DNA from: a virus
Direction: 5' to 3' (one strand)
Length of the DNA stretch: 60,139 nucleotides
IMG/VR virus record: IMGVR_UViG_3300010885_037196
Coordinates: 1 to 60,139 of that record
How positions within the stretch are numbered: the stretch's first letter is position 1; every line of letters begins with the position of its first letter. The translations under genes were made by a program, and so were the position numbers. Under the pieces are notes generated by a model that made no database searches, was not told the origin of the DNA, and saw only the letters and a list, made by a program, of their open reading frames with translations. Below, piece by piece: positions 17,481 to 57,285 of this stretch.

Positions 17481-18707
17481 TTATTGATTTTCTATTTTAA
17501 TTAAAATCATACGAGATTTTCCAATAGTTAAAACAAACGTATCGCCGTTGAATGCGCTTCTAGATACAGGAAGTCGTGCATCCAACATAGGTTCTCCATT
17601 CATCTTTACACCACCACCTTCAGCCAATTTTGCAGCCTCCGTTTTAGATTTCACCAATCCAGCATCAAACATAATTTGCGCTAATGTAATTCCCTTATCA
17701 AAGATTCGCGATTCAATCACGAATGTTGACGTAGAACTTGATGCGCTCGTTTTGTTTTGAGCTAAATTTGCGACTTCTTCCGCTGTGGCTCTACCATGGA
17801 CAAGAGCGGTAACTTCGGTAGCCAATTTTATTTTAGCTTTATTGATTTCTTTCCCATCTAGGATTTCTAGATCAAGGATATCATCCATAGAAAGTTCGGT
17901 AAAAAGTCGTAGAAACTCTCCAACTTTTTTGTCTTCCACATTTCGCCAGAATTGCCAGAATTCAAATGCTGCAGTTTTATCGGGATCGAGCCAAATAGCG
18001 TTTCCAGCAGACTTTCCCATTTTTTCACCAGCAGAATTAGTCAATAATGGTGTGGTCAGCCCAAATGCTTCTTGCTCATTAATTCTCCTAATGAGTTCGA
18101 CGCCATTGATTATATTTCCCCACTGGTCTGATCCACCGATTTGAAGAACACAATCTTCCTTTTCATTCAATTTCAAGAAATCAATGGCCTGCATCAACAT
18201 GTAATTGAATTCAAGAAACGTCAGAGGAGCATTTCGGCTTAGCCTCGTTTTCACCGAATCAAACGTAAGCATTCTATTGATAGTAAAATGACGACCATAT
18301 TTTTCCAAAAAATTGATGTATGATGGAGTGTCTTCCGAAAACCATGTCGCATTTGTTTCATGCCGACAATGACCCACTAAACGATCAATAATACGCACAA
18401 TACCTTCGCGATTACGTTCGATTTGTTCTGAGGTCAACATAGGACGTTGCGATGATTTTCCAGAAGGATCACCAATACGAGTGGTAGCCTCGCCAAAAAG
18501 AACTATAGGAGTATGTCCCAATTTCTTTAACCAGCGAAGAACCATGATTTGGATCAATGAGCCAATATGAAGACTATCTGCGGTTAAATCGAACCCGATA
18601 TAGGCAATAATAGAACCCTTACTCGCAAGCACATCAAGACCTTCAAGATTGGTCGCTTGGTGAATAAATCCTCGCTCTTTAAGAGTAATAAGAATTTTAG
18701 ATTCCAT
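17481..18707 (-). CDS. tyrS: Tyrosyl-tRNA synthetase (class Ic), full length
   Basis: A 408-residue TyrRS that charges tRNA-Tyr with tyrosine. All expected parts are present: YIGFDLTADSLHIGS (36-50) with the HIGH-type HIGS; the TyrRS stretch RMLTFDSVKTRL and FLEFNYMLMQA (145-173); QIGGSDQWGNI (189-199) for tyrosine and ATP binding; the KMSKS-type KMGKS at 229-233; and a C-terminal S4 RNA-binding domain (about 343-405; ITLAQIMFDAGLVKSKTEA). Length matches bacterial enzymes (about 400-430). The AT-rich codon use looks like its neighbours. No tRNA-Tyr is visible in the window. Phage TyrRS genes are rare outside very large genomes. Confidence 0.97.
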   Translation of the reverse strand: MESKILITLKERGFIHQATNLEGLDVLASKGSIIAYIGFDLTADSLHIGSLIQIMVLRWLKKLGHTPIVLFGEATTRIGDPSGKSSQRPMLTSEQIERNREGIVRIIDRLVGHCRHETNATWFSEDTPSYINFLEKYGRHFTINRMLTFDSVKTRLSRNAPLTFLEFNYMLMQAIDFLKLNEKEDCVLQIGGSDQWGNIINGVELIRRINEQEAFGLTTPLLTNSAGEKMGKSAGNAIWLDPDKTAAFEFWQFWRNVEDKKVGEFLRLFTELSMDDILDLEILDGKEINKAKIKLATEVTALVHGRATAEEVANLAQNKTSASSSTSTFVIESRIFDKGITLAQIMFDAGLVKSKTEAAKLAEGGGVKMNGEPMLDARLPVSRSAFNGDTFVLTIGKSRMILIKIENQ

Positions 18708-25138: not shown

Positions 25139-25846
25139 TTAATGCGGGGTTTGAGTTTCGTAGAGGTCTTTAAAATGCTTTTGATCAATTCTAAATTTAC
25201 ATCCTCGATCCCGCGAGGGATAGCGGCCCGTTCTAATATTTAAGGTATTTGATTTAAAATATCTACTAGGACTAATTACTATTGTGCCATCATTGATAAA
25301 ATCAATAAATTTGTTTAATTTAAATGTTCCAAAAGAATCTACGGAAAGAACGGAGTGTTCTTCATTTCCATTTTTTAGTTTTTTACGTTGAACAAAAACT
25401 TTTAAAATGTTTTTAATTTTAGAAAAACCAACTGCCAAGTATTCATATCCCCAATAGCATATTTCTTCTTTAGTTATAGAATCATATATAACAACACCGC
25501 CACTATTAGCGTAACAAAATAATTTAGAACTATTATAGCTTATATCCGCCGCAAAAGCTTGTCTATTTTTTTTGTCAAGATATCCATATTCTAATACTAT
25601 TCTATATGTATCGCCTCGTTCGGGCCTTTTTGAAAACAAGGTAATATCACATATTCCTTGGCTGGATTTTATTTCAAATTCAGGAGTATCAGAATGTGGA
25701 TTGTTGTTGGCATCTATTCCCAAAGCATCTTCTACGACCATTCCGCTCTTTCCAGAATTTTTTGTTGTTTCGGTCGTTACGTTTAAATCTTTTAGTTTTC
25801 CAACTAGTAGATCAAATTTTGTTTTATCGTAGTTTAAAAAATCCAT
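25139..25846 (-). CDS. MvaI/BcnI-family restriction-type endonuclease, no methyltransferase
   Basis: A 235-residue protein. GKSGMVVEDALGIDANNNP (32-50) and then D53, E58-I-K60 (TPEFEIKSS) match the MvaI/BcnI layout of a Gly-rich loop with LG[IV]..NN and a D-x4-E-x-K active site, followed by ITLFSKRPERGD (68-79). MvaI and BcnI are monomeric PD-(D/E)xK enzymes that nick and cut short CC(W/S)GG-type sites. No methyltransferase lies in the window, so it may degrade host DNA, exclude rival phages or act as a mobile nuclease. A 17-pair hairpin ends at its start codon and no Shine-Dalgarno is visible. Confidence 0.78.
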   Translation of the reverse strand: MDFLNYDKTKFDLLVGKLKDLNVTTETTKNSGKSGMVVEDALGIDANNNPHSDTPEFEIKSSQGICDITLFSKRPERGDTYRIVLEYGYLDKKNRQAFAADISYNSSKLFCYANSGGVVIYDSITKEEICYWGYEYLAVGFSKIKNILKVFVQRKKLKNGNEEHSVLSVDSFGTFKLNKFIDFINDGTIVISPSRYFKSNTLNIRTGRYPSRDRGCKFRIDQKHFKDLYETQTPH

Positions 25847-25949: not shown

Positions 25950-28736
25950 TTATTCAGTTTTTTTAGCTTCTTTTGCCGCAGCTTGTGCCGCATAATCAGC
26001 AAATCGATGATCTAATTCATTATCAATTTGTCTAGTATAGCTTGGTTGTGCTCCAGCAATAATCAACAGGTCATCCCGAATATTCTGTGACTTCTTTTCG
26101 AGATTCAATACGCGAGTGAAACAGTTTGAAGAATGTATGCCGCTACTTAAAGCAAAGCTTTGAGTGGTTTCAACTACTGGGCAATACACTCTTTGATACT
26201 TATTTTCAATATCACCCTGACGGCTACCATAAACAAACCATTGCTTTTTGGTTTCTTTTCTTGTATCCCATCTTTCTCTATGCTTACTCAAAATAAAATC
26301 TTCTGAATGCATAGATGCCTTTTTTAGGTGAATATTAAGACTTTGCTTTTTTCTTTCACCGAAATTAGTTACTTTTGCCAAAGTCGTGAAATTATTGATA
26401 TGCCATCCAACAATTGGTCCCCATGTTTTCAACCAATTATATTCGGCTTCATCTCCGCAAAGTGTTGGCGTTGGAACCTTACTTACGCAGCCATCGGCTG
26501 CAAACCATCCTCGCAAAAATCCGAGAAGATAATCTGTGTCTTCTCCTGGATTTTCTGGAAACTTCTTCAAGTTTGCCCATGCTTGTGAAATACTAAATGT
26601 GGGATCACCATTATATGATGGAGCATAAAATACTGGATATTTTTCAAAAATTGGCATAAAATCTGATATATTAGAACATATTCTTATGTAGTAAAAATCC
26701 TTGCAGTTTTTATTAGCACTACCATCCCCATAAATTACACCATGAGTTAGTCCTTTTTGGTAACTTTCTGCATTTTTAACTACTTTGGATGGGCGCAAAT
26801 CATTTATTTTTGTGTTATGTCCATTAAAATCTTTAGTTTCAACTCTTGTATTTTCACTAATCCATCCGTGATTAAGGGTTGACCAAATTTCAATTTTCTT
26901 TCCGCCTTGTCCTTGGAAATAGGTAAGTTGTGTTTCTTGGACTCCATGGTCAAATATGTGGCATTTTACCCAGTCACCATTTCCATCAAGCAAAGTAACA
27001 TCTTTTTCAGAAATTTCTTCTATAGGAACTGATCCGAATTCTTTGGTTAATACTAATGTATCTCCACCAAGACAATTTCTTATGGCAGTTGTATAGAACG
27101 CGAATGGATTATCAGACTTAGATTCATCAAATTGTAAACCAATTTGAGATAATTGAACTAAAGCTTGGCTGCGCATTTCATCGACATATGTGTTGCCAGA
27201 AATATGAATGTAATCGCCACGACGGGCAACAAAGCAGCCATATTCAGTTTCAGGACACCAAACCATTCCGGTATATGGTACAGTGGGTTTATTAGGATGA
27301 GTAACTTTTCCTAAGCCTTTAGTTGCGCCATTTTGCTTCGCACCGTGCATGTTTATATTTTCAACACGCTTTATGTTCCTACGCTTTGAAAGGAAGTGTG
27401 CTTCGTATATATGTGATGATAAATTATTTACGGTGGTTGTAATTTCACGCTTTCGGAAAGAAACTTGATGACCACATAAAGTTGCAAGCATCAAGAAAGA
27501 ATCCAAATGTTCTTTATCTTTTTGACAATAACCAATATGCAAATATTTCCCTTGACGAGTACGCCAACCATCACCATCTATCATGGTCTGAAGAAGCAAT
27601 TCCCGCTGCGATGTGGTCAATTTAAGAATAAATTCTGGTGGAATAATTCTATTTGTTCCAATTTCGCTTACAATGGTGTTGATTAAATCTTTATTAATAG
27701 TAAAAGCGACATTCTCCAAATTTCCATTACGAGAGCGTTTGTATTCTGAGAATTTTTCACCAAGAGTATTTAGACATTTGCGAATACGGTCAGAATAACG
27801 TCCTTCGTTTTGATAAATCTTTAGGCGATTTGCGTTGTTTCTTTTATAAAAAGAACCTTCAGTAGCTACCCATCCGATCAATTCTACAAAACTATCAGAA
27901 TATGTTTGTTCAATTGGTGCTTCAACCGAAGAACCCATTAGGCGCAAACGATCTGTTTCTCTGAGTAACTCGACTGGAACTAATTCATTATTAGTTGTCA
28001 GAAATTTGTGCCCTGGAGTAACAAGAGCATCAATACCAATACCAGACAATTGAAACATATTACCATTGAAGTTATCGCGGAATATCGACTTTATTTTTGA
28101 CCAAGCTAACTTTTTTCCATCATAGGAAAGAATGATATCTTGTTCATTGATTTGCTCGTAATTTAACCAGCCACGTTGTGTTAACGCTTGAGTTTGTTCA
28201 TCAACACAATATCCGCGCCAGTTGCCACGTCTAGAATATCTCTCAACTAACATCATAAACATTCTGGCTAAACGATCATTAATTCTGCCGCTATCAGGAT
28301 CGAAGCTTCCGTTATCAAATCCATCTTTCCAATGAGAGCGCAAAACTTCTTTTGGTCCAGTATCTAATAAGATATAATGTTTAAATGGTGGGAAAGTTGT
28401 ACGAGCATATGATTGATCGGTTACTCGGCTCTTACGAACGCGATCCGGATCAAGTGGAATATGTTCATATGTCATTACGCGAACAACGATACTTTCTGGT
28501 AGAATAGTATCAATAGCAATTGCGGGCTTGCCACGAGGCTTTGCCTTTTTTTCTCGCACGGCTTGAATAAGTTCCGGAGTAATTTCGGATACAGACCGAA
28601 CAATAGTATCATGGTCGGCATATTGTGGTTCAACATAATAACAAAAAGTTTTTTTACTTCTATGAATCTCACCTAGAAGTTCTTTGTTGTTAATATACTT
28701 AATCTTATTTGAGGGGGATGAAGGAACTGTTGTCAT
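25950..28736 (-). CDS. 55: Late sigma factor, T4 gp55-like, with two inteins
   Basis: A 928-residue precursor; the three exteins (1-176, 516-554, 872-928) join to a 272-residue gp55. The N-terminus KIKYINNKELLGEI matches the YNYVNNKELLQAI start of T4 gp55; RLARMFMMLVERYSRRGNWRGY (155-176) is the family's helical core; NPFAFYTTAIRN + CFTRVLNLEKKSQ matches [21 protein letters not shown] of T4. gp55 directs RNA polymerase to late promoters such as those marked in this window. It is longer than T4 gp55 (185) by an N-terminal insertion (about 25-150). Both inteins sit in the most conserved parts, so no late transcription is expected until both are spliced. Confidence 0.92.
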   Translation of the reverse strand: MTTVPSSPSNKIKYINNKELLGEIHRSKKTFCYYVEPQYADHDTIVRSVSEITPELIQAVREKKAKPRGKPAIAIDTILPESIVVRVMTYEHIPLDPDRVRKSRVTDQSYARTTFPPFKHYILLDTGPKEVLRSHWKDGFDNGSFDPDSGRINDRLARMFMMLVERYSRRGNWRGYCVDEQTQALTQRGWLNYEQINEQDIILSYDGKKLAWSKIKSIFRDNFNGNMFQLSGIGIDALVTPGHKFLTTNNELVPVELLRETDRLRLMGSSVEAPIEQTYSDSFVELIGWVATEGSFYKRNNANRLKIYQNEGRYSDRIRKCLNTLGEKFSEYKRSRNGNLENVAFTINKDLINTIVSEIGTNRIIPPEFILKLTTSQRELLLQTMIDGDGWRTRQGKYLHIGYCQKDKEHLDSFLMLATLCGHQVSFRKREITTTVNNLSSHIYEAHFLSKRRNIKRVENINMHGAKQNGATKGLGKVTHPNKPTVPYTGMVWCPETEYGCFVARRGDYIHISGNTYVDEMRSQALVQLSQIGLQFDESKSDNPFAFYTTAIRNCLGGDTLVLTKEFGSVPIEEISEKDVTLLDGNGDWVKCHIFDHGVQETQLTYFQGQGGKKIEIWSTLNHGWISENTRVETKDFNGHNTKINDLRPSKVVKNAESYQKGLTHGVIYGDGSANKNCKDFYYIRICSNISDFMPIFEKYPVFYAPSYNGDPTFSISQAWANLKKFPENPGEDTDYLLGFLRGWFAADGCVSKVPTPTLCGDEAEYNWLKTWGPIVGWHINNFTTLAKVTNFGERKKQSLNIHLKKASMHSEDFILSKHRERWDTRKETKKQWFVYGSRQGDIENKYQRVYCPVVETTQSFALSSGIHSSNCFTRVLNLEKKSQNIRDDLLIIAGAQPSYTRQIDNELDHRFADYAAQAAAKEAKKTE
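26124..27074 (-). mobile_element. Second intein in gp55, LAGLIDADG type
   Basis: Codons 555-871 (317 residues). It begins CLGGDTLVLTKEFGSVPIEE, has LNHGW in the block-B region, two LAGLIDADG-like helices (LTHGVIYGDGS near 663-673, LLGFLRGWFAADGC at 737-750), and ends GIHSSN with Cys872 next. The penultimate residue is Ser rather than His. It lies between RN and CFTRVL, at the Cys that T4 gp55 also has. Confidence 0.9.
27192..28208 (-). mobile_element. First intein in gp55, LAGLIDADG type
   Basis: Codons 177-515 (339 residues). It begins CVDEQTQALTQRGWLNYEQI, has TPGHKF (240-245) as block B, LAGLIDADG-like helices ELIGWVATEGSF (285-296) and LLLQTMIDGDGW (380-391), and ends GDYIHISGN with Thr516 next. 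The penultimate residue is Gly. It interrupts the helix after RRGNWRGY. Confidence 0.92.
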
Positions 28737-39415: not shown

Positions 39416-42400
39416 TTATATGCCATAATAAGGAATAACCACATTATGATATGAGGATAAATCTGAATTTGATAACGGGTTATCCCAATATATTATTTCA
39501 GATATATTTGCATCTAAGAAATAAGAACTTTGCTGTTGACCACCAATTTTTGGGAAACCTCCTATATATGAATTATTTGTAGTAGGATATGGATATCTCG
39601 TATCTCCGCTAATATCAAAATTACTATCAAATGACATAACTAACGTGTCGGACAGAATATTATTATTATATGTTTTTGCTGAAATAATACCACCAAGAGC
39701 TTCTACTCCGGTATTTGACATAAAGGTTAGGGCATGAGCGGTTGTTCCAACCGAGAATGTTGCGGAAACTTTTGGAGAATTGCCGACCAGTGAAGGATTG
39801 CCCGATGTATTAAAGAATATACCAATTGGTGGATTATTTCCCTTAGACGACGGTTCTCCAATCGCAATAGAACCAAATGCCATATCAGCACTATTAGAAT
39901 TAAGTTTTATTACTGAACTCATAGTAAATGGTCCAGTAAACATAGCATAATCAAATGTTAACATATCTGAATTATTCGCCGCAAATCTAATAGATGGCTG
40001 GCCTTTTAACTTAATTATGGAATTATCTGTATATATGATCGGGCGATTATATCCGGTTTTAACATATGCATGATATCCGTTTCCAGATTGATCATACCAT
40101 TTGTTTACTAGACCAATACTTGTACCACAGAATTTTTGAATAGATTCAACGTCTAACACGCCAGATATGAAATATATATTTAATACGGAGTTGTCAGAAG
40201 TTCTTAACACTTGCAAGCATGGGCCTGTATAATTGTCTATAACTTTTCTAGTGGAGAATACAATTTTTGGTTTTGAAAGTACGGCTTTTTTTGGTATTAT
40301 CACATCTTCATATAATTTTATAACGGCAAAACTGTTTCCGCCGCATGATCCAGGAATACTTAAATCACCATTGCTACTATTTCCGCCAAGAGAAACACCA
40401 TTTTCTGGATAATTTGCATCTTGAGTAAATGGTCCTGCCAATGTTATTCCAGAAATAGAAGTATTGCTTACATAACCAGAGCCGCCTCCGCCTGCGCGGG
40501 AGATTCCGCCTGCTCCGCCATAATATCCACCACCACCACCTGCTCCGGACGATGCGTTACCGACAGGTTCAAAGCCGTTGCCGCCATGCAGGTAACCACC
40601 TTGATGATTAGGATATGTTGTATTTAACGGAATATTTACAGAAGAACTTGAGTTGTTATCTAATATTACATATCCACCGCTACTTTGTGATCCAGATGAT
40701 CCTATACCTATCAATGGTATTGTCGTCATCGCAGCCCCAGTTTTCCCGCCTCCATGTGTATTTCCGTCAGTTCTAACCGCATCGGTAATTCCACCAGCGC
40801 CACCGGCCACTGCCACAATTGCGTTATTGATCCATAGACGAGATGATCCTCCGCCTCCGCCAAATCCCAAACCACCATCGCCCCCATCCGGCCAACCACC
40901 ACTACCGGCAGTTTGTGGATAAAGATCGCTATTAGTTGGAGAGAATCCCTGTGAACCCGTTTTACCAATTTCTATTTTTATATCATCTCCTGGATTGACT
41001 GAGAAAATAGCGTTTGTAAAACCACCACTACCACCAGCGTGATACCAATATCCAGAAGATGCTCCTCCCCAAAGCTTCACTTGTAATGTATTAACTCCTT
41101 CAGGGACTGTACCAGTATAAGTTCTTGGTAGGCTCATAGTGGTCGTGCCATTAGAGAAATTTACTGGAATAGTTTCGCCATCAATGTCTAGAGGTGAACA
41201 AACCTGAAGTGGATTCTTTGCCGCGAATGTTACAGAAAACGTTTGAGATTGTTTTACCATAAAATTAGAACCCGTTGATGTTGCATCAACTATAAAGCTA
41301 TATGTATCAGCAATTGGGTATTTTAATGGGGGTAACGAGGCAGAAAATACACCATCGCTCGATACTGCAAAGCTTGATGGCAAATTGCTATTTTTTGAAC
41401 TCAAGGAATAAGTTATCACATGATCATGATTTTGTTGAGCAACCAAAGAATTAGAATAATTTATAGAACCAGAAAATTCTATTACTCCCAAGTTTGAATT
41501 TGAAATCCATGTTATTTTTTCTGGAGATAGAACTGATATAGCAAATTGACGAGAAATTGAATTTCCATTTGTAGTCGCATTTGCCACAAAAGAATAAGTA
41601 GTATCCGCAGAAACTGCATTAGCAATTCCAGTTATCGTTCCATTTCTATTCAATTGAAGACCATTTGGTAAATTGCCGCTATACTTTCTATATGATATTT
41701 TTTTACCTAATGAATCACTAGCTAGTATTCGAGAATTAACTGTGGTTCCTGATGAGACGGTAAATAACGATCCTTCGGACGTGATCCATTGAAACTGCTC
41801 CGTAGCTATTGGATTTTGTCCGTATGATCCAACTAAGGCATCTCTCAACGGGCTACCAATTGGATGATATACACCACGAGATTGGCACAAGAATATATCA
41901 ACACCGGTTAATGGAGGAGTAACAAACTCAACTATTACCCCATTCGTAGTAAGAGTAGTAGTGTAATCAATATCTTTAAATTTAGGAACTAGTTTATTAT
42001 ATCCAGTATATTGATCTATATAGGACGTAGTGCCATTTGAATCAATATATTGATATCCATTATCTTTAATTGGAACTTTATTTGAATCTAATGGAACGGT
42101 AAATAGATATACTTCTATGTTATCAGTAGAAGTCAATTCTGGCATAAGGAATGACTTATTTCCTGTTCCATTATTTTGTCCTTGTCCTACCAATTTAACC
42201 ACGGTTCTCTGTTCTTGTCCAATTCTTGTCCCACGAGTACCTCTTCTAAGTTGAGAAAGATTTACTGTTCCGTTAGCATTCATTGTATAATTAAAATATT
42301 CAATTCTTTCATTATTAACCCAAACTGCTCCAGGATGGGTTACGGTAGATACTATTTCTGAGTTTATTGAATCTTTATATGTATATTCTTCCCGTGGAGG

Positions 42401-45198: not shown

Positions 45199-48100
45199 TT
45201 AATATATAGTGATCGAGAATAATCGAGGAACTGGCGGCAAAATTCCGTCAGATACGTTTATATAAAAATTATAATCTATTCGCGGATTAACGTAAACAAT
45301 ATCTTGGCACGTTATGTCAAAAACTGCATTTGAATATGCATTAGTACCCAGTCTACTATCAGGCTCGCTGCGATTTACTCGAATTCTTCCTCTAGCAGAA
45401 GAATATTGAATATCCTGATTATTAAATCCAGTTCTAGGCGGAACGTACCATGTTGCAACAACATCATATGATTGTCCAACTATCCAAGAAGAAGTATCAA
45501 CCGAGTCGGTAGCATTACTGTATCCAAAACCACTTCTAGTTCCTAATGCTGGATTAAGTGTTTCATTAGCGACGGTTGTTCCATCAGCTAATACTGTGCC
45601 ATTAGCATAAATCGCATCGAACGCTGGTTTTAAATAGGACTTAATTCCGTTAGTTTCTGCCTTTATTTTTTTAACCGAATAAACTATTTTATACGTTGAT
45701 CCTACTTTTGGAACAAACGTATTATCCGAAGTAATAAATGGAGCGTCCCCGCTTCGGACGGCATTATAAATGGGGCCGTAATCATACATCTCCTTTGATC
45801 TAAAAACGACTTTATTGGTCAAAGTGTCTCTATAAACGGTATAATTAGGAGCAACATACCCCGCTGGGGCACCCATAGGAATAGGAAATGGGGACAAATT
45901 GGTAACAGAGGTGATTACATTAGCAAGAGCACCATCCCAATGCCCGTATGGATATGGTGGGCCGATAAGATACCATCCAGTTAATGCGCTCTGATCGACT
46001 GCATTTACTGGAGTTCCGGATATAAGACCACTAGACGATAGGGTCAATCCACTAGGCAAGGTAGACCCTAGGGCCAAGGAATACGTCAAAGGATCATTAT
46101 TTCGGTCACTGGCGGAACATTGTATTCCATTTCCATTATTAATTGGTTGATTTGCTATAAATTCTCCAATTTTTCCAGCGGCTGGGCTTATCCATTCTGG
46201 TGCATACTGTATAGAAACTGTTCCACTAAACGGTCTTTCTGCTGAAACTCCATTATTAGTTGCACGCATAGTAAAAGAATAGGATGATGTCGCATTAGTA
46301 AGAGTGCCAGAAATTACACCAGTAGCAGAATTTAAGTTAGTTCCTGCCGGTATACTACCCAAAACTATTGAATATATAGTCGATCCAACCGGATTGGCAA
46401 CCGATACGATTGGTATAAAACTATAAGCCGTTCCGCCCTTAGATGCCGGAAGAGCGCCTGCGGTTGGGCTATTCCAAGTTACTACTGTCGCTGCGCCAAT
46501 TACTCCAGAAAAGGATCGATCTGCTGAAATTCCATTATTGATAGCACGGATTTTGAAATTATAGCTCGATGATACATTTGGCACAGTTCCGGTAATAACG
46601 CCTGTATTTGGATTTAAAGCAGTTCCTGCGGGCAAAGTACCACTTTGTAAAGAATACACGGTTGTTCCAACTGGATTTTTAACAGATACATTCGAAATTA
46701 ACAGATATGTTGAGTTGCCTAAAATGGGACTTTGGGCACCTTCTGGGGGACTGACCCAAGTAACAGTAGTAGCTCCTTTTATTTTAATAGAAAATGATCT
46801 AGGAACTAATGGAAAAATATTATCTGTAACATTTAATGTGAACTTATAAGTAACATCAGTTTCAAAATATTTAACATCTTGATTAAGTATTTTGAAAACA
46901 GCATTCGAATACGGATATGTGCCAAAATTATCATCAGGATAACTTCGATTAATTCTTATTCTACCCCTAGCATATACATATTGTATACTAGGAGTCCATG
47001 TTACCGAAATATCATATGGTTGCCCTATTACCCAATTAGTTGTATCTATCATATCTATAGTTGAATTATACCCATATCCGGTTTTTGTTCCTTGAGCCGA
47101 TGCTAAAAGACCATTGGGGTCTTCGGCATCAAATGCTGGGCGGATGTAGGAAGTAATTCCGTTAGTTTCTTTAACTGTTTTTATAATTTTATATGTAACC
47201 GTGTATGGTATACCGATGGTTGGCATGAACGTACTATTTGTGGCGATAAACGGAGAATCGTATGGCTTTGTTTGAACAATCTCATAACCATTTTCCTGTA
47301 TAGTATAACCATTATCCTTGGCCGAGGCAGTTACTCGTATATCTCTTCCATCATAATGCCCATTACCTAAAGGTATTCCCACGATAATCCAAGATAAATT
47401 ACTTTGATTCGTCTGATTTACTATATTGATCGGAGTTCCACTTAATATACCGGTATTAGAATTTAATGTTAATCCATTTGGCAACGGCAAACTGTCTGGA
47501 GCGAGCGAATAAGTTAAGTTATCATTATTTCTATCAGTTGCAACAAACCTAAATGTTAATGGTTGGCCTTCTGGATAATCACCGATACTACTATTCGCAA
47601 CAGTTTGCCATACCGGAGGATATTGCGCAACAACTGTTCCATTAAATATTCGGTCAGCGGCTAGTTCATTATTGGTTGCGCGAATGGTGAACAATACATT
47701 TGTAGTTTCTGGTGGAGTAGTAAGGGATGGACTAGTTGTTGCTGGATTATTTAAAGTTCCTCCAATAATACCAGTATTTGTATTTAAACTAATTCCTGTT
47801 CCATTTGGCAATGCACCATTTGCTAGTGAAAATATAGTAGGACCGGATGGATTACTAACATATACATTTGATATTAATGAAAATGATGATCCACCTTTTA
47901 ACTGCCCAAGATCACTTGCGGGACTTATCCAAGAAATTGCTGTACTACGAGTAACTGTTCCAGAAAATGTGCAATCGGCACTTATGCCATTATTAGTAGC
48001 ACGCATTGTAAAGTTATAACTATATACAGAATTATTCAACGTTCCAATAATTTGTCCAGTGTATTCATTAAATGATGTTCCTAGCGGAACAGCACCAGAT

Positions 48101-49449
48101 ATAATAGAATATCTGGTTGGTCCGACTGCGTTTTCAATTAACAAATCCGGATTATCCATTGGATTATATCTATAAAGAGTTCCACCAACCCATGGCGCAA
48201 TCTGGATGGTCGGGCTGATCCATTTAACAGTCGTAATTCCTAAAACCGATCCAGTAAATGTTCGATCCGCCGATATTCCGGAATTTGTGGCACGTATTGT
48301 AAAAGTATAGTTTGATGATGCATTAGTTAATTTTCCCGTAATAGTTCCTGCGGTAGAATTCAGACTTGTTCCAGCGGGCAATGATCCATCAATTAATGAA
48401 TAAGTAGTTTGCCCAGAAAGTCTGGAAGTTCGGACTATAGCAGTAAAATCATAATCCGTTCCACCGATCTGTTGACCACGATTTTCATCTGGACTAAACC
48501 AATATATACGATACAAAGTAATACTGAATAAATGGTCAGCATGAGATACGCCATCATCTGCTCGAATAGTAAATATATATTTTGTATTAATTGGAACAAC
48601 ATCAGAAGTTCCATAAATTAAACCAGCATTTAACCCAGAAGGCGATAAAGTTATTCCATTTGGAAGTGTTCCATTAGCTATTGAATATGTTAATGGGTAT
48701 CCCTCCAATTGAATTGCATTGGCCGTATAATTTATTGGTTCTCCCGCAGGATATACTAAATCGAATGTGTTTGTTCCCCATATTGGAGCAATATTTAATG
48801 AAGTTGTCGTAAAATTAAAAGCTTGTGTGCTCATTATAATACCATCATCGGCATTTAGCGTAAAATAATAATGTTGGCTCGTACCTCTTGGAATTTTTGC
48901 CAATTTTCCTGATATAATTCCGTCATCAGATAAAGAAAGTCCGAGAGGAATATCCCCAGTAACAAGAGAAAACGTTAACGGAGCACATTGATAATATATT
49001 GCATTTAATTTTATAGTTATATCAGTATTTGAAGCATATTCACCAAGTATGTTGATATTTTCATCAACTAATTCTATAACTTCCGATGAATTTACAACCG
49101 CATTTACCCAAAGAGGTGGAACGTTTACATGCTTTACTACAATAGTAAAATCTTGATCTGAATAATCTAAGTTATTTGTTGCTCGAATAGTAAATGTCCA
49201 AGAATAATCATGGCAATATGTTGTTGTATTAGCAACATCTCGCAGTTTTAAAATTCCAGAGATATTGCCGGATAGTGGATCAAGTATAGCCCCATATGGC
49301 AAAGTTCCAGAAATTAAAGAATATTCAATACATTCGCCTTGCGGATCATTGGCCGATATATTTGCAAAAAAGTTATCACCGTCATACGTGACCCCTGCTG
49401 GAACATTAGGGAAGCGACTAGGTAATTCATTTAATATAGTGTATATCAT
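45199..49449 (-). CDS. Giant fibre-like protein: ten Ig-like repeats with two nested modules
   Basis: A 1416-residue protein made almost wholly of putative-Ig (He_PIG/cadherin-like) repeats with the pattern YSLxxGxLPxGxxLNxxTGxIxG, then YxFTIRATNxGxSADRxFxGxV. I count ten. In the seventh and tenth an extra module (about residues 686-863 and 1157-1393) is inserted between the two halves of the repeat; see the repeat entries. No enzyme motif is seen. Such proteins form long surface fibres or decorate baseplates and tails, binding polysaccharide. Its ATG lies 9 bases past the stop of the 2608-codon gene, so the two share a transcript. Confidence 0.75.
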   Translation of the reverse strand: MIYTILNELPSRFPNVPAGVTYDGDNFFANISANDPQGECIEYSLISGTLPYGAILDPLSGNISGILKLRDVANTTTYCHDYSWTFTIRATNNLDYSDQDFTIVVKHVNVPPLWVNAVVNSSEVIELVDENINILGEYASNTDITIKLNAIYYQCAPLTFSLVTGDIPLGLSLSDDGIISGKLAKIPRGTSQHYYFTLNADDGIIMSTQAFNFTTTSLNIAPIWGTNTFDLVYPAGEPINYTANAIQLEGYPLTYSIANGTLPNGITLSPSGLNAGLIYGTSDVVPINTKYIFTIRADDGVSHADHLFSITLYRIYWFSPDENRGQQIGGTDYDFTAIVRTSRLSGQTTYSLIDGSLPAGTSLNSTAGTITGKLTNASSNYTFTIRATNSGISADRTFTGSVLGITTVKWISPTIQIAPWVGGTLYRYNPMDNPDLLIENAVGPTRYSIISGAVPLGTSFNEYTGQIIGTLNNSVYSYNFTMRATNNGISADCTFSGTVTRSTAISWISPASDLGQLKGGSSFSLISNVYVSNPSGPTIFSLANGALPNGTGISLNTNTGIIGGTLNNPATTSPSLTTPPETTNVLFTIRATNNELAADRIFNGTVVAQYPPVWQTVANSSIGDYPEGQPLTFRFVATDRNNDNLTYSLAPDSLPLPNGLTLNSNTGILSGTPINIVNQTNQSNLSWIIVGIPLGNGHYDGRDIRVTASAKDNGYTIQENGYEIVQTKPYDSPFIATNSTFMPTIGIPYTVTYKIIKTVKETNGITSYIRPAFDAEDPNGLLASAQGTKTGYGYNSTIDMIDTTNWVIGQPYDISVTWTPSIQYVYARGRIRINRSYPDDNFGTYPYSNAVFKILNQDVKYFETDVTYKFTLNVTDNIFPLVPRSFSIKIKGATTVTWVSPPEGAQSPILGNSTYLLISNVSVKNPVGTTVYSLQSGTLPAGTALNPNTGVITGTVPNVSSSYNFKIRAINNGISADRSFSGVIGAATVVTWNSPTAGALPASKGGTAYSFIPIVSVANPVGSTIYSIVLGSIPAGTNLNSATGVISGTLTNATSSYSFTMRATNNGVSAERPFSGTVSIQYAPEWISPAAGKIGEFIANQPINNGNGIQCSASDRNNDPLTYSLALGSTLPSGLTLSSSGLISGTPVNAVDQSALTGWYLIGPPYPYGHWDGALANVITSVTNLSPFPIPMGAPAGYVAPNYTVYRDTLTNKVVFRSKEMYDYGPIYNAVRSGDAPFITSDNTFVPKVGSTYKIVYSVKKIKAETNGIKSYLKPAFDAIYANGTVLADGTTVANETLNPALGTRSGFGYSNATDSVDTSSWIVGQSYDVVATWYVPPRTGFNNQDIQYSSARGRIRVNRSEPDSRLGTNAYSNAVFDITCQDIVYVNPRIDYNFYINVSDGILPPVPRLFSITIY
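45265..45980 (-). repeat. Nested module, copy 2 (in the tenth Ig-like repeat)
   Basis: Protein-level repeat. It begins WYLIGPPYPYGHWDG, has APFITSDNTFVPKVG, then AETNGIKSYLKPAFDA, a GFGYSNATDSVDTSSW stretch, and ends near RGRIRVNRSEPDSR and YSNAVFDITCQD. Boundaries are approximate. Confidence 0.8.
46860..47392 (-). repeat. Nested module, copy 1 (in the seventh Ig-like repeat)
   Basis: Protein-level repeat with WIIVGIPLGNGHYDG, SPFIATNSTFMPTIG, KETNGITSYIRPAFDA, GYGYNSTIDMIDTTNW, RGRIRINRSYPDDN and YSNAVFKILNQD. It sits at the same point of the Ig repeat as copy 2 and is shorter because copy 2 has an extra segment after the GHWDG motif. Confidence 0.8.
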
Positions 49450-49458
49450 TGGTAATCC

Positions 49459-52400
49459 TTATCGAGGTCTTGTATATATATCATCATCTAAATACCCATC
49501 ATCTAATCCTGGAGCGACAGGAGGTTGATTAACGTATGTAGGAGGATTCCAAATTGGAGGTAGATTCATATTCGGTAGCGGTCTGGGCAAAGTAATAGGT
49601 TTTGGTTTTGGGCGAAGTCTATCATCAAAGCCAACTAAACTATCTTTCAAATTATCCCACATCCAGTTTGGCGGTAGTGACCTTGGATCATGTGGACGTA
49701 AAAGCATCCAGTCTTGATGTTTGGCTCCGGCATAATCATTTTTTTCTAAGATTATTTGAATTGCTGTTCCAGATAATGTTCCAGCATTAGATTGATTGAA
49801 TGTGTCTTGTAAGAATGCATTCGCTCCTCCGATTAATAAACCATTCGGCATTATTGGAGCAAACCATGGCACATCTTCGATTGCCGGATTAAGCAAGTAT
49901 TGTGAAATAGCTTTTGCGGACATCGTTTTGTTTGAATTAAGAAGAACCGTATTCATTCCGGATAACCAGTAATAATAATATGTAATTATTTGGCCAGAAA
50001 TAGGGTCATGTTCTTCGAATGAAGCATATGATGGATTAGATGCGTTATAAACTTTGCCAGTATAAGTACCGGTGGTATCATTTTCTGAATATATTTGATA
50101 TGTAATAGGGTCGATTGTACTTCGTACCCATTGATATATATCTATAGAACATGAGGGGGCAATACTTCCCCAATTTTTTGTTCTATATTTAACTTCAGCA
50201 TTATATTTTTCAGTTGATACCATATCAATGGCAACATTGTCGGTTTCAGTTTCTAAGAAACGGACTTTTGATAAATCCCACCAAAGCTTACCAACCGATT
50301 CTGAACCCCATCCATTTACATCCCCATATCCACCAGTTGCATTTGCAATATTGGCGTTCATATATATCTCTTGAAGAGAGCTATCTAATTTATATAATAC
50401 GTCGGAAGGCGGAGAATACGGATACTGCGCTGGATCATAGTCAGTTATATAGTCTAATTGATTGATAGCGATCCCAGGAAGAATTCCGCATAATGGAGAA
50501 ATCACAGTCATATGATCTAACGAAAATGGCTGTGCTTGTAAATCGGTGGTTGTAATTTTAGATTCCAAAGAATACAGTAAAATAGATGATACTTTGGTAG
50601 CATCTATTCTTTTTGGTTGATCTCTATAGCAATCCCAAGCAATGTAGGTTACCTCTACAGAAGTATCTTCAAAGTCTGATTGATTCTCTGTATATTCAAA
50701 TGCCTTGTATACAGTCCACGGTTCATTCTTTGCGCCATCTACGTAGGCCAAATCGCCAGCTTTTATGCCGCGTCTGGAATTTCGCATGACATTGAACTCA
50801 GTATCATTATTGAAATGAATTGAACGCAATATTCTTACGGCGGGCATAGAAACACTTTGGTTTGCGCTGAAATCAAATCCTAGCATAGATGATGCTTTTA
50901 CTTCAAAAAAAGTTGGGCCGACAGCACTAATGATATGAACGCCTTTTATATCTTCATTACTATAAGTTGCGCCATCAATTACTACAAAATTATTAATATC
51001 CGTAGCCGATAATCCATGTGGATTCATCGTATAGACACGAATAGAATTGACGGACAAGTTAACATCTTCTTTATTAGTAACGATGTTAGATACATAATTT
51101 TCAGAGCCATCTTCGCTCATATTATATATTTTAAGCGCATCCCAATCAATCAATTTTTGTTGAGATATTATGTTTTGCCCTAATACATCGAATATAGCAT
51201 CCGAATAACTCGACATAATAGAATCGGTTACTCCATTCCAATTTAAACGCAATCTACTATGAACTGCATTAAATGTTGGTGTATCTGGGCAAGTCCATGT
51301 AACCGTTATATTATAATAGGTATCTATAGCCCAATTAGTCGTATCAATGGCATCCAAAACCGGATCATATCCATTTCCAGTAGTAGTTGCGGAAAGCTGG
51401 ATGAATGTATTATAATTATTAAACCCATCAAATGCTGGAATCAAATATGCAGGAATCCCATTAGTTTCCTTAACTGATTTTTTAACAGTAAATGTCATAG
51501 TATATGTTTGACCCGCTACTGGAATAAAATCCAAGGAATTCGTTATATATGGCGAATCATTGCTTTTAGATTTAAATACGGTGTTTCCAGAAGAGTCGGT
51601 AAACAAGTAACTAGATTTAATTACGGCTGTATCAACCGTTCCATCCCAATACCCAAGAGTGTTTTTATTTATAATTGAATCTGGATTTTGTATAAAATTG
51701 CCGATTACATACCAAGTGTTGCTAGGATTGCCAATATTTACAGTTTTAATATTTTCATGAATCCACACAACTTCACCGGCATACATGCGATGATTAATTG
51801 CTGCATTATATATTGTTGGTAAATCTGATCCGTAAAAAACAGAATAATCAATTTCATCTAATCTAACATAACCAGAAATTGGAAAATTATGTTCTTGTTT
51901 TTTCAAATCCATACGTTGTGGAAAAGTGTTTAATGGATTTTGAGGACGTTCTATCCAATTTCCATCTATCCCGTCTGATACGGAATCATTTATTTGCATC
52001 CAATCCATATTATCATAATTAGTGGTTATTGCATTTTGCGTAACATTAAATTGTACATACTGCGGGTCGCGCAAAATATTAGAACGCTTTATTTGAAAAG
52101 AAACTCGTTCTTTAGATGATAATGCACCATATTCATCAAGCCTAAGCGCCCATTCTTCAAAGAAGTTTAATTGGCGATTTTGATCGATATAATCAGAACG
52201 AAGCAATTTATCGAATGCTCCAGGGGCACCTTTTTGGTGAATCAATCCTTGATAATACTCGAATTGTTGTGTTGGCGAAATAACTAAACTTTCTAAATAA
52301 TCTCTATTATCATATCCAATAATAGAACGGGCATGATCTCTCAATATAGCATTGTCGGATTTTTCAATATCCCACATGGTGAGCAAGTCATTTGCAGATT

Positions 52401-55400
52401 TATCAAAGTTTGATTTTATTTGACCGTTGATAAGTATATATCCAGGTGCATCAAGAATACCAGTCCAATTTATTGACTTATTTCCAATAACTAACAAACG
52501 AGGCTGGCGAAGATTGAATAAAGGATCATATATTAAATCACCAAATATAGTCGTATTATCAAAAATCAAAATATGTTCTATTTGTCCAACATTTACACGA
52601 ACACCGTAGAGATCATTATTTTTAGAATATATTTCTGCTGTATTATCGATTCTATTCACTATGACATCGTTTCGGTCAATAGGAGCACCGGTTCTATTAA
52701 TTACACCGTAAGCTCCGGTAATTGACTGCAATATATCAAATATATATCCTTGTTTTGCATCAAATGATATCCCACTGGCTGCGGGAGAAAGAGTAATAAA
52801 ATTACCAACAGTCCAGTTAACTTGAGACCATGCTAAAAATTCTTCAACTGAGGATGACCAATCAATAGTATTTTGCGACATGGTATCGGTATTGATGAAT
52901 GACCATCCCTTAGAAACCAAATACCGCTCATGTCCTAATACGAAATCCGCGATGTCTTGATAACTGTTGAAAACTGTACCATATGGAACAGTCACTTCTT
53001 CGTCTGTGCCATATAAATATGTCACAACTCTGGGAGATGGCGGGGCTGCAATTCCACTATTTTTCCAATAAGTATTGTCGAAAACATTTCCGCCCATATG
53101 TGCCTTGGTAGCCGCGTACACGGTATTTTGGTATTGAACGAAGGTGTTTATAGAATAATACGTATTAGTCTTCCATTGCGCTACAACAGGTTCTTGAGAG
53201 GTAGATAGACTTATAATCCCAGTAGGACCATTTTTCATAGGTGGAATGATCGTAAATCTTGGATTTCGTATGTCATATCCAACGACTTTCCATCCATTGC
53301 TTACTTTTTCTATTAGCACGCCGCTATAAAATGATTCTCTAATAGAAGGCGAGGTGTATAAATTTATACTTATGTTTTCGGCAGGTATTTTTCCAAAATT
53401 ATCAGCAATAATATTTAAATTATCAGTTGTGGTAAAACCAGCCAACTTATGAACTAGTCTCGTGTCCAATCCTCTAATATGATTTCCAAATATTTCTGGA
53501 CTTTGGCCTGTAGATTTTATGTAATCGCTTATCCATTGTTGGACGCCAATGTTTTTTACATACGAATTATTGACTATCTCGCCATGAATATATAATTGGT
53601 GATTTTCTGGACGGTTTCCAGTTGAGTTATAAATCCATTGCCCTGTACTATCCTGAACATTATTTATAGTATCCCAACCTTGTTCTATAAATCGAGATGG
53701 TTTTGCCAAGAAGGTCACGATTGCTAATGAGAATTGAAAAGATGGCGATCTTCTCCATATACTTTCAATCGGTGATCCATCACCAAACTTCCATGGTGCG
53801 GATGCATCATTATATGTTGGGATATTATCTACTATATTTGCTGAACGAGGATTTAGTAGATTTCCTTCATCATCAACTGGTAAAAACTTATATAATGTTT
53901 TGCGAGAATATCTTAAATCTATACCAGATCGAACTCCACTACGAATACGACCATCTCTTAAGTCATCCCATAGCTTTTTATTGCCTCTCGTATACGGGGC
54001 TGGGCCATATTCTGTGTCCCACCATGTTGGCTTATCAACAAACCCTAGCATTTCCCAAGGAGACAAATGCGGGCGATCTGTATCATAATAATAGTAATAT
54101 ATTCCTTTCCAAAACCCTGGTAAAGAATTTCCATTAACATCGCGTGTTCCAGAATAATTCCAAGAAAATGGATCATCTTCAATGTACATTTCATTTGTAT
54201 GATAATCTAGTTTATTTAATTGCACCCATTTTTCAAAATATGGGGAGAGCATTTCATTTATTTCGGACTGTGTATAATATAATTCTCCCCCATTATAAAA
54301 AGCAGAATTGGTTCGAGCTTGCAAATCAACAAGCGGTCTAGCTTCGGTTTTGAATCGAGGAGATATGCTGTCATATATTTTTTGTTCAAATGCTACTATT
54401 TTTGAATCTCTCCAATCGCCAAATGCGGGAGATAAACTTCCATCATGTCCTTTAAGCATGAGGACGGGAGAAGAAAATGAAAAATCATAAACTAATCCTG
54501 GTTTTGCTACCCTTGCTAATCCCATATATGCGGGAGTTGGTGGAATAAAATATTTGGAACCACATACGTCGCTTCCGTAAAAAGCAAAATCGGAGGTTTT
54601 GTTAAGTTTTAATTGATCAAGGGCAGTTTTTACCCAAAGAGAATCTGGATCGCTATCAAGAAGAGTCCCATTTCGTCTTATAGTAATAAGGGCTTGGATG
54701 AACTTATTTTTATAACGAGTATATTCTTGGTCTGCGTATCGTATGGCAGCAGGAACATCATATGTTGATATAGCAGAAACTAGCATCGTTTTTAATAAAG
54801 GAGAACGATGTTGTAGAATTTTTGTACCAACACTTAAGTTTTTATGAGTGTCTCGCCAATTATTACTCGTATAAGGTTGACCAGTAAAGTTTTTTTGCAG
54901 GGTCATTATTTCACTAAAATGATCAAACCATTGACTTTTTGAAATTGTTTTAACTTGCAAGTTATTAGGGTTAGCTTGTAAGTTTAGTGGAATTGTATAT
55001 ACACCATTTTCTAATGATTGTGAACTTGGTGTGGAATGCGCGAACCAATTATTAGAATATTTTTCAACAAACGTAGATACTCCATTGGTAATTTCAGTTG
55101 AAATTATTTTATGATAATAATATCCTTCGATATTACCCCCATTATATTTGGCAATTTCTATATCAGAATCTACATTAAAGATGGGATTGGCATAAGAATC
55201 ATAATTTAATGGAAAGCCCAAAACGGCATCGTTTTCGCCTGTTCCGACTTGATAACTGAAAAGTTTATTTCCAAGAAAGCTTGACCCAGGATATGTGAGT
55301 TGATCATCCAATCGGTTTTTCATAGAATCGTATAGCGCAAATAATGGCGTAGAAGATGCGCTTTGTGCTATTACCCATTCGACCCCATTGTACCAATACT

Positions 55401-57285
55401 CGGTATAAGAAGAAAAAGCATTTCGAGTAGAAACAGTTTTAGCACCATTTCCAGGAATATGTCTAAAAATATCACCACGTTTTGGTGTCCTCGTCAATGT
55501 AAGCTCAATTACATCGGCAGTAACTCCATATGCCAGTGGAGTATCTGCTTGAGAAATGACTTTATAAATCATATTATTTAACTGCGGTTCTAATGAATCG
55601 TGTTGATGAACGAACAAATAATCATTTGGTTGCAAAACATATCCATCATCAACTGATATTCCGCTATTCAATTGATTGGATTGTCTACCAAATAATTGCC
55701 CATTAATTCTAGATAATACAATTTGTTCATTATCCCATACATTGCTATCATATGGCTGAGAATCCCACGCATCATATATAACCACTGATGCATTGCTCAT
55801 TATAGCTTGAACATCGGGTAAACGGTTCCAGCCATAATTAAATAATTGAATATTCGGCAAAAACTCAATTATTGGTCTATGTGCTTTTCTATCAGATTGA
55901 GAATAATCTATTCCATTCCACATCAAAGAGTCAACATGCACCCACATATTTCTGATAGACCATGGGCTTTTTTCATTCGAGCGGCGATCTATGATAGTAT
56001 ATAATGGAGAGCGACCGTTATGGTCAGAGGTATGATCTTCGTTAAGAACTATAGATGTTCCCACCCCATCAACAAAAAAATGTCTAATTCCTATTCCATC
56101 AATGAGTTTAAGTCTTGTTCCAGTGGTAACGGTGCTTGCATTTGTAGAAATTGCCCATTTAGAACTATCACGAGAAAATGCAGTATCCGCTACGTGAGCG
56201 ACTATACATCTATATGACGCCGCATAATCAGGAGTATAAATTAGCTCACCCACTCTGTATTTTTTAGAAACTGATATAATAGGAGATGCAGAATTTAGAG
56301 TAATTTTTATATCACCCGATGATACGACCATTACTGATTCGGTAGCAACATTTATAGAAAATTTATTTGAGGACACAGAAGATAGAATGTATAAACTGTT
56401 TGTATTAGAGTTTACATCCGCAATTACATCATTCATTGTTTGGGTAATAGTATTATTAAAGTTAATTTTCCTAGATAATGCTTCGCCATTTACAAAAAAT
56501 TGAACATTTCCAGTCGTTCCGGTCATAGTATATTCATTTTTAAATCCAGAAGTAGTAGACTGCCATGATATAAAATTTGTGTAGTCAAATGCAGATTTTT
56601 CGGAAATAATTTTTGAGAGATCGCCGTATCTTATAGTAGTAATAATATCCCTAACATTTATATATCCAGTGCCAATAATCGCATTACCATTATTATCAAA
56701 TTGCGCATCAATCCGCTTACCATTAATTAAAACAACGGGATATTCATCATTTTTAGAAATTGAACTTATTACTGGCGGCAATGGATATATCGTTTGAACA
56801 CCATCATATGCATAGTTTATTTCTGGTGGCCGTAAAACAATTTGTGTTTTAGAATGCTCGGATTCTGTTAACGACCCTAGCCATAAATAATGATTATAAT
56901 TATTCAGCTTATCTATATCTACTGGCGGAACCCAAGAATAATAATCGCCTTCAAATAATCTACTGTGATTATTTGTTAATCCACCTTGTGATTTAATATA
57001 ATGCAATAAGTCATCATATGATAAACTAGCAGAAACAGTATTAGTATTATCAATTGAAACCATTCCTGGTTCTAATTGATACTCTTGCCTCTCATCTGTA
57101 GGTTCAGAGATATAAAAATCCTTTATAGGATTATAATATACAGGCTTCTGGCCTATATACCCACTAATCTTTTCGGACGAACCCGGTTGAACTAATTGAT
57201 CTAGGGTTGCTGCAAAAAAGTTTTTTAAAGTATCTGTCTGGAATACAGCAGGTAACTGATTAATAAGTCTACGTTTATCTTTCAT
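49459..57285 (-). CDS. Giant baseplate/tail structural protein (2608 residues)
   Basis: The largest gene here. The N-terminus KRRLINQLPAVFQTDTLKNFF and the following DQLVQPGSSEKISGYIG match giant structural proteins known from T4-like cyanophages and relatives. Further conserved-looking parts are WVPPVDIDKLNNYNHYLWLG, and WMLLRPHDPRSLPPNWMWD near the C-terminus, which then becomes Pro-rich. A copy of the nested module lies at about residues 1857-2040. No enzyme motif found. It heads a transcript with the Ig-repeat gene; a CCTAAATA octamer ends five bases before the ATG. Its exact place in the virion is unknown; a baseplate or whisker role is inferred from relatives. Confidence 0.75.
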   Translation of the reverse strand: MKDKRRLINQLPAVFQTDTLKNFFAATLDQLVQPGSSEKISGYIGQKPVYYNPIKDFYISEPTDERQEYQLEPGMVSIDNTNTVSASLSYDDLLHYIKSQGGLTNNHSRLFEGDYYSWVPPVDIDKLNNYNHYLWLGSLTESEHSKTQIVLRPPEINYAYDGVQTIYPLPPVISSISKNDEYPVVLINGKRIDAQFDNNGNAIIGTGYINVRDIITTIRYGDLSKIISEKSAFDYTNFISWQSTTSGFKNEYTMTGTTGNVQFFVNGEALSRKINFNNTITQTMNDVIADVNSNTNSLYILSSVSSNKFSINVATESVMVVSSGDIKITLNSASPIISVSKKYRVGELIYTPDYAASYRCIVAHVADTAFSRDSSKWAISTNASTVTTGTRLKLIDGIGIRHFFVDGVGTSIVLNEDHTSDHNGRSPLYTIIDRRSNEKSPWSIRNMWVHVDSLMWNGIDYSQSDRKAHRPIIEFLPNIQLFNYGWNRLPDVQAIMSNASVVIYDAWDSQPYDSNVWDNEQIVLSRINGQLFGRQSNQLNSGISVDDGYVLQPNDYLFVHQHDSLEPQLNNMIYKVISQADTPLAYGVTADVIELTLTRTPKRGDIFRHIPGNGAKTVSTRNAFSSYTEYWYNGVEWVIAQSASSTPLFALYDSMKNRLDDQLTYPGSSFLGNKLFSYQVGTGENDAVLGFPLNYDSYANPIFNVDSDIEIAKYNGGNIEGYYYHKIISTEITNGVSTFVEKYSNNWFAHSTPSSQSLENGVYTIPLNLQANPNNLQVKTISKSQWFDHFSEIMTLQKNFTGQPYTSNNWRDTHKNLSVGTKILQHRSPLLKTMLVSAISTYDVPAAIRYADQEYTRYKNKFIQALITIRRNGTLLDSDPDSLWVKTALDQLKLNKTSDFAFYGSDVCGSKYFIPPTPAYMGLARVAKPGLVYDFSFSSPVLMLKGHDGSLSPAFGDWRDSKIVAFEQKIYDSISPRFKTEARPLVDLQARTNSAFYNGGELYYTQSEINEMLSPYFEKWVQLNKLDYHTNEMYIEDDPFSWNYSGTRDVNGNSLPGFWKGIYYYYYDTDRPHLSPWEMLGFVDKPTWWDTEYGPAPYTRGNKKLWDDLRDGRIRSGVRSGIDLRYSRKTLYKFLPVDDEGNLLNPRSANIVDNIPTYNDASAPWKFGDGSPIESIWRRSPSFQFSLAIVTFLAKPSRFIEQGWDTINNVQDSTGQWIYNSTGNRPENHQLYIHGEIVNNSYVKNIGVQQWISDYIKSTGQSPEIFGNHIRGLDTRLVHKLAGFTTTDNLNIIADNFGKIPAENISINLYTSPSIRESFYSGVLIEKVSNGWKVVGYDIRNPRFTIIPPMKNGPTGIISLSTSQEPVVAQWKTNTYYSINTFVQYQNTVYAATKAHMGGNVFDNTYWKNSGIAAPPSPRVVTYLYGTDEEVTVPYGTVFNSYQDIADFVLGHERYLVSKGWSFINTDTMSQNTIDWSSSVEEFLAWSQVNWTVGNFITLSPAASGISFDAKQGYIFDILQSITGAYGVINRTGAPIDRNDVIVNRIDNTAEIYSKNNDLYGVRVNVGQIEHILIFDNTTIFGDLIYDPLFNLRQPRLLVIGNKSINWTGILDAPGYILINGQIKSNFDKSANDLLTMWDIEKSDNAILRDHARSIIGYDNRDYLESLVISPTQQFEYYQGLIHQKGAPGAFDKLLRSDYIDQNRQLNFFEEWALRLDEYGALSSKERVSFQIKRSNILRDPQYVQFNVTQNAITTNYDNMDWMQINDSVSDGIDGNWIERPQNPLNTFPQRMDLKKQEHNFPISGYVRLDEIDYSVFYGSDLPTIYNAAINHRMYAGEVVWIHENIKTVNIGNPSNTWYVIGNFIQNPDSIINKNTLGYWDGTVDTAVIKSSYLFTDSSGNTVFKSKSNDSPYITNSLDFIPVAGQTYTMTFTVKKSVKETNGIPAYLIPAFDGFNNYNTFIQLSATTTGNGYDPVLDAIDTTNWAIDTYYNITVTWTCPDTPTFNAVHSRLRLNWNGVTDSIMSSYSDAIFDVLGQNIISQQKLIDWDALKIYNMSEDGSENYVSNIVTNKEDVNLSVNSIRVYTMNPHGLSATDINNFVVIDGATYSNEDIKGVHIISAVGPTFFEVKASSMLGFDFSANQSVSMPAVRILRSIHFNNDTEFNVMRNSRRGIKAGDLAYVDGAKNEPWTVYKAFEYTENQSDFEDTSVEVTYIAWDCYRDQPKRIDATKVSSILLYSLESKITTTDLQAQPFSLDHMTVISPLCGILPGIAINQLDYITDYDPAQYPYSPPSDVLYKLDSSLQEIYMNANIANATGGYGDVNGWGSESVGKLWWDLSKVRFLETETDNVAIDMVSTEKYNAEVKYRTKNWGSIAPSCSIDIYQWVRSTIDPITYQIYSENDTTGTYTGKVYNASNPSYASFEEHDPISGQIITYYYYWLSGMNTVLLNSNKTMSAKAISQYLLNPAIEDVPWFAPIMPNGLLIGGANAFLQDTFNQSNAGTLSGTAIQIILEKNDYAGAKHQDWMLLRPHDPRSLPPNWMWDNLKDSLVGFDDRLRPKPKPITLPRPLPNMNLPPIWNPPTYVNQPPVAPGLDDGYLDDDIYTRPR
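51165..51715 (-). repeat. Module copy 3, outside any Ig-like repeat
   Basis: Protein-level repeat in the 2608-residue protein: WYVIGNF ... LGYWDG, SPYITNSLDFIPVAG, KETNGIPAYLIPAFDG, GNGYDPVLDAIDTTNW, HSRLRLNW and YSDAIFDVLGQN. It has no flanking Ig-like halves, which shows that the module is an independent unit. Confidence 0.75.

Follow-up and report, generated by a model that had tools for sequence, protein, structure and literature searches.

The window analysed here, a 60,139-nucleotide jumbo-phage fragment (IMG/VR record IMGVR_UViG_3300010885_037196), encodes one module three times in two neighbouring proteins, which raises the question of what this domain is and what it does in two such different carriers. 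An earlier note made from the letters alone had described three copies of 180-235 residues and had guessed that they represent a domain able to be transferred, perhaps a jelly roll that binds carbohydrate.

Three copies in two neighbouring proteins

BLASTP and alignment recovered all three copies, each on the minus strand. Two lie in a protein of 1416 residues: c1 (46852..47397) covers residues 685-866 and, at 182 residues, is the copy that we modelled as one jelly roll, and c2 (45277..45984) covers residues 1156-1391 and reaches 236 residues with extra loop insertions. The third, c3 (51151..51723), spans 191 residues (1855-2045) of a 2608-residue protein. In a seven-copy alignment c1 and c2 are 42% identical, c1 and c3 33%, and c2 and c3 34%; aligned by themselves, the three copies have 43 invariant columns in common. 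Compared as whole sequences by BLASTP, the two proteins gave E-values of 7e-29 and 1e-22. The sequence landmarks WxxIG, G(H/Y)(Y/W)DG, PxI....F.P..G, GxGY...D.(I/V)DT(T/S)W, R.R(I/L)R.N and YS(N/D)A(I/V)F follow one another in the order first described; a further one, KETNGI..Y..PAFD, holds in general but not for c2, which reads KAETNGI. Ig-like and jelly-roll sequences are alike in composition, which might favour a likeness by chance or through low complexity among beta-rich proteins. However, local alignment scores between the copies were 230-347 against a shuffled maximum of 71 (300 shuffles per pair), and together with the BLAST E-values and the iterative HMM scores this leaves no room for such an explanation, whose probability we regard as negligible.

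The 2608-residue protein (49459..57285, minus strand) matches PHROG 10938, annotated as 'head and packaging, virion structural protein', with 1188.5 bits. Its gene and that of the 1416-residue protein (45199..49449, minus strand) are arranged head to tail, and the gene context of the module proteins is that of tail and baseplate. From gene order the 2608-residue protein is probably a baseplate protein, mainly because its RaK2 homologue directly follows a gene annotated as baseplate wedge subunit. A search for T4-type wedge homology returned no match among PDB sequences, and the RaK2 adsorption-complex and RaK2 genome papers give no virion location for the homologue.

One relative, L020, has the large protein fused with the Ig repeats in a single 3371-residue ORF. 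The PHROG 10938 profile covers the 2608-residue protein and, weakly, a 1773-residue protein of the window, and the 3620-residue ORF of another relative, L022, contains near its end a stretch that by eye resembles the 1773-residue protein. It is therefore probable that three neighbouring genes of the window form one polypeptide in relatives, and such a fusion suggests that the three gene products work within one structure. The same family of large proteins contains CBM_5_12 stretches, of which L022 has four and L020 has one. By eye, a similar segment can be seen in the window at 53053-53178 (minus strand; residues 1370-1411 of the 2608-residue protein), where it scores below threshold. In the 1773-residue protein, the region at 40064-41083 (minus strand) is perhaps another sugar-binding part: it combines a glycine-rich domain of the ALK/LTK type with, behind it, a partial match to the catalytic family of alpha-L-arabinofuranosidase B.

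The rest of the window, read on the same strand, contains a T4-type portal protein split by an intein (5328-8390; Intein_splicing 357-759, with an HNH endonuclease match inside), a phage-encoded tyrosyl-tRNA synthetase (17481-18707) and a 235-residue protein that matches the MvaI/BcnI restriction endonuclease family (25139-25846; E 1.6e-19). The 928-residue late sigma factor at 25950-28736 probably holds a second intein: it has a LAGLIDADG-like match and, under the cut-off, a weak one to intein splicing. No tRNA genes were found in the window.

Insertion sites and distribution of the module

The 1416-residue protein consists of about ten Ig-like repeats of the He_PIG type (PF05345; 206.9 bits, E 4.8e-62, 10 stretches), two of which hold the module. 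Using an HMM built from its eight unsplit repeats, together with Pfam He_PIG, we located the repeat that hosts c1 in an amino-terminal part at 47398..47619 (residues 611-684) and a carboxy-terminal part at 46774..46851 (residues 867-892). The repeat that hosts c2 lies at 45985..46203 (residues 1083-1155) and 45202..45276 (residues 1392-1416, the end of the protein), all four parts being on the minus strand. When the module was removed, both host repeats matched the repeat HMM continuously, with the break at model position ~65/66, and the scores rose from 33.3 and 35.3 bits for the amino-terminal halves alone to 44.2 and 43.7 bits for the joined repeats of c1 and c2, respectively. The joined repeats also matched PF05345 with 49.2 and 38.3 bits, against a curated cut-off of 24, and the matches reached profile positions 95 and 94 of 96. 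In both cases the insertion point falls after the SGTPxN strand and before the Y.F..NV.D strand, which bears out the claim that the two copies were inserted at the same place, and the rejoined halves support the view that c1 and c2 are nested in the same loop of the Ig repeat. A composite model of an intact Ig repeat with the module was weak (pLDDT 62.3, pTM 0.44). The third copy indeed lacks Ig flanks, as the earlier note had it: Pfam gave no Ig match on the 2608-residue protein.

To follow the module in other phages we used the conserved carboxy-terminal part of the 2608-residue protein as a query, which gave 508 relatives, and fetched 80 loci. An iterated module HMM, run on all the loci collected, the window included, identified ten copies, six of them at the c3 site (the window, L008, L009, L011, L017 and L020) and the other four inside Ig repeats (c1, c2 and one each in L008 and L017). 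Seven of the ten are thus additional to those of the window; they come from five IMG/VR contigs, and five of them occupy the c3 site, two the Ig site. In the L008 Ig protein the repeat HMM placed the insertion at the same site as in c1 and c2; the L017 copy is flanked by ...TGIPQ... and ...YDFTVNASDG..., which we read by eye as the same site. Columns invariant in all ten copies include the first W, the P..G..Y of the strand before K, PxF, GxG, T..W, Y, R and N. Scans with the module itself had found both L008 copies and those in L011 and in L009, a contig of 516 kb. L017 and L020 escaped the pattern scans of viral contigs and surfaced only through the flanking protein, and the distribution given here is therefore a lower bound.

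Within a set of 85 host-protein loci that includes near-duplicates, the module was present in six. The same ORF extends at least 450 residues upstream of the matched part in 83 of the 85, and the c3 site should be covered in these 83. RaK2 and Atu_ph07 are among the phages without the module. The clearest comparison is offered by L022, which is 44% identical to the window in the main part of the host protein and has an empty c3 site: it reads GERVWVYDQPDYPWTVLRVCPLGQV... at the point where GEVVWIHENIKTVNIGNPSNT-[module]-IDWDALKIYNMSEDGSE... stands in the window. The host sequence just upstream of c3 (51718..51873, minus strand; residues 1805-1856) is conserved in L022, and downstream of the copy (50971..51144, minus strand; residues 2048-2105) the conserved part continues there. 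We considered whether the WxxIG landmark could itself be host sequence, given a W-containing strand nearby in RaK2 and L022, and think this less likely: the empty site of L022 fits better if that strand corresponds, in a short match, to WDALKIYN after the module. In Atu_ph07 (L013), L002 and L004 the anchors that flank the c3 site are separated by ~1000-1500 residues without the module, which may mark a general hot spot at which domains are added.

The six module-bearing sequences form one clade in the host-protein tree (support 92/91, slightly short of the level that the tool stars), with L022 and L023, both lacking the module, as neighbours. The simplest reading of this tree is a single gain at the c3 site in the ancestor of the six-member clade. 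A bolder and less probable reading, which we would hold only tentatively, is that the module serves this jumbo-phage clade as a dedicated shuttle domain: after a single gain in the giant baseplate-type protein, separate lineages would, on more than one occasion and independently of each other, have copied it into the same loop of the neighbouring Ig repeats, building a multivalent glycan-gripping arm. In the tree of the copies a single clade of Ig copies was not rejected (p-AU 0.186). The idea of a transferable domain agrees with a site that is filled or empty across related baseplate-type proteins and with two unrelated sites in one genome, and 'insertable' is a fair description of the module.

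The position of c3, at one site in all six members of the clade, would suit a fixed, structural role, in which the jelly roll would serve as a baseplate spacer or as an assembly contact between proteins and would bind no sugar. However, the module also occurs in the very different surroundings of Ig-like repeats, and L009 and L020 have Ig proteins without it, so that it looks like an optional accessory.

Sequence searches and the predicted fold

Searches of Pfam, PHROGs and PDB sequences with single copies and with alignments of three, six and seven copies gave sub-threshold and inconsistent matches only. No CBM family, PF02018 (CBM_4_9) included, appeared in Pfam scans of seven copies at E-values up to 10. 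A tblastn search of 50,697 phage records with c1, c3 and an L008 copy returned a single match at E 9 and otherwise nothing, and scans of 84,980 prokaryote genomes found no relatives. The module is a sequence family new to Pfam, PHROGs and PDB sequences, although the kind of part and its use are already known; what is unusual is that copies sit nested within one Ig loop and that one genome has the module in two very dissimilar proteins.

The AlphaFold2 model of c1, built from a six-copy alignment, is an all-beta single jelly roll (pLDDT 88.5, pTM 0.85). In Foldseek searches of the PDB it matched PL7 lyases, CBM22, the PP2 lectin and CBM16 at E-values of ~1e-4 to 1e-3. The best VIA-align matches to module residues 1-181 were the PP2 phloem lectin (Z 9.8), CBM15 (9.7) and residues 170-324 of Douge gp20 (9.6), where Z 7-8 is common between unrelated models and the best value is moderately above this. 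These were followed by the CBM of xylanase Xyn10B (9.4), CBM4-2, the carboxy-terminal domain of the K2-2 tailspike (residues 430-579) and CBM16 (all 9.3) and CBM22 (9.0). Each top match aligned 120-143 residues, and TM-scores of the structural matches were ~0.4-0.55. The viral structures matched were mostly tail fibres and minor tail proteins; one is a RaK2 tail fibre and another a 'CBM-cenC' protein. The guess of a jelly roll is thus upheld by a confident all-beta model whose best matches, over its full length, are CBM jelly rolls and phage glycan-binding domains. The model supports the fold class well, as a CBM or galactose-binding-like jelly roll, and singles out no one family. An HMM match to a known CBM, the check set by the earlier note, is missing at the level of Pfam, PHROG and PDB sequence profiles, but a CBM resemblance is present at the level of the fold.

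The same fold also has roles other than sugar binding, which counts against a function in adhesion. The lowest Foldseek E-values in the PDB belong to PL7 alginate lyases (1.3e-4) and might point to an enzyme, of this or another polysaccharide-cleaving jelly-roll type. The PL7 alignments, however, have an rmsd of ~8-11 Å, and PL7 is absent from the top VIA-align rows. PL7 alginate lyases carry the catalytic motifs R-x-E-[LV]-[RK], Q-[IV]-H and Y-F-K-x-G, which were found in none of the seven copies checked, and we consider an enzymatic role very unlikely. A structural role without a sugar ligand is the main rival and draws some support from the fold, which makes protein contacts elsewhere: the VIA-align list contains ephrin-receptor chains, whose ligand-binding domains are of this kind, as well as Stig-cyclase chains. 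The most conserved motifs of the module, YxxPAFD, RxRxN and DTxxW, are also partly core-like. Glycan binders nevertheless make up most of the close fold matches of known function, and we regard the structural role as unlikely, if the most serious of the alternatives.

A proposed role in adsorption and known systems

The repeats, the insertion sites, the pattern of presence and absence and the confident predicted fold are all supported by these data. We favour, as fairly probable, a CBM-like jelly-roll domain, displayed by a jumbo myovirus on its tail or baseplate, that gives a weak, multivalent grip on host glycans in adsorption. The module would be a galactose-binding-type beta-sandwich, added as a whole folding unit to a surface loop of a large virion or baseplate-type protein (c3) and to one inter-strand loop of an Ig-like repeat (c1 and c2). 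Each module would bind host surface glycans weakly and many copies would provide avidity, so that the baseplate and the Ig-like arms could hold the cell during adsorption. The module would then act as an accessory adhesin and not as the main receptor-binding protein. Its location on the virion, its exposure at the surface, its binding of glycans and its part in adsorption we infer from the observations above. In favour of an adhesin we also count that the PHROG 10938-type host protein family already holds other CBMs, in the form of CBM_5_12. The proposal would give a role to a domain outside the Pfam and PHROG models, in very large jumbo-phage proteins mostly annotated 'virion structural protein'. 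The clean filled and empty site, with a nested Ig copy next door, makes this a concrete case in which to study baseplate decoration with accessory adhesins.

The He_PIG repeats that host c1 and c2 are ordinary members of a family known from phage tail proteins, and differ from other such repeats in that two of them hold a whole second domain in one loop. CBM families 4, 15, 16 and 22, modules of cellulases and xylanases, are alike in fold (Z 8.8-9.7 over 122-139 residues) but only 6-12% identical and without a profile match, and the module is placed near them by its predicted fold.

That the module binds host surface glycans and adds avidity is the most likely reading by analogy with two phage systems, Douge and Vp4. 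The domain CFP-NTD of the Douge central fibre gp20 (residues 165-321; PDB 8ZDP/8ZDQ) binds mycobacterial cells and, on a glycan array, LAM/AM and alpha-glucan fragments (PMC13033339). This adhesion domain of a tailed-phage virion is a jelly roll that matches the whole module (Z 9.6, 142-143 residues aligned), but it is 11% identical and belongs to a siphophage fibre, outside any Ig repeat or giant baseplate protein. Evolved Dit proteins of lactococcal skunaviruses are reported to have inserted CBMs that facilitate adsorption (PMC10688798). There too a structural tail protein aids adsorption through an added carbohydrate-interacting part, although Dit is a siphophage protein and unrelated to the host proteins of the module. 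In Bacillus myophage Vp4 the baseplate wedge protein Gp119 has CBM folds that its Deep-Blue homologue Gp177 lacks, and cells were decorated by Gp119 only (PMC11406892). Vp4 Gp119 thus resembles our case in having CBM-fold domains added to a myophage baseplate wedge and absent from a relative's homologue; it differs in its host protein family (A511 gp105-like) and its Gram-positive host. If sugar binding by the module is true, CBM-decorated baseplates, mostly known for phages of Gram-positive hosts, would extend to the RaK2-related clade of jumbo phages.
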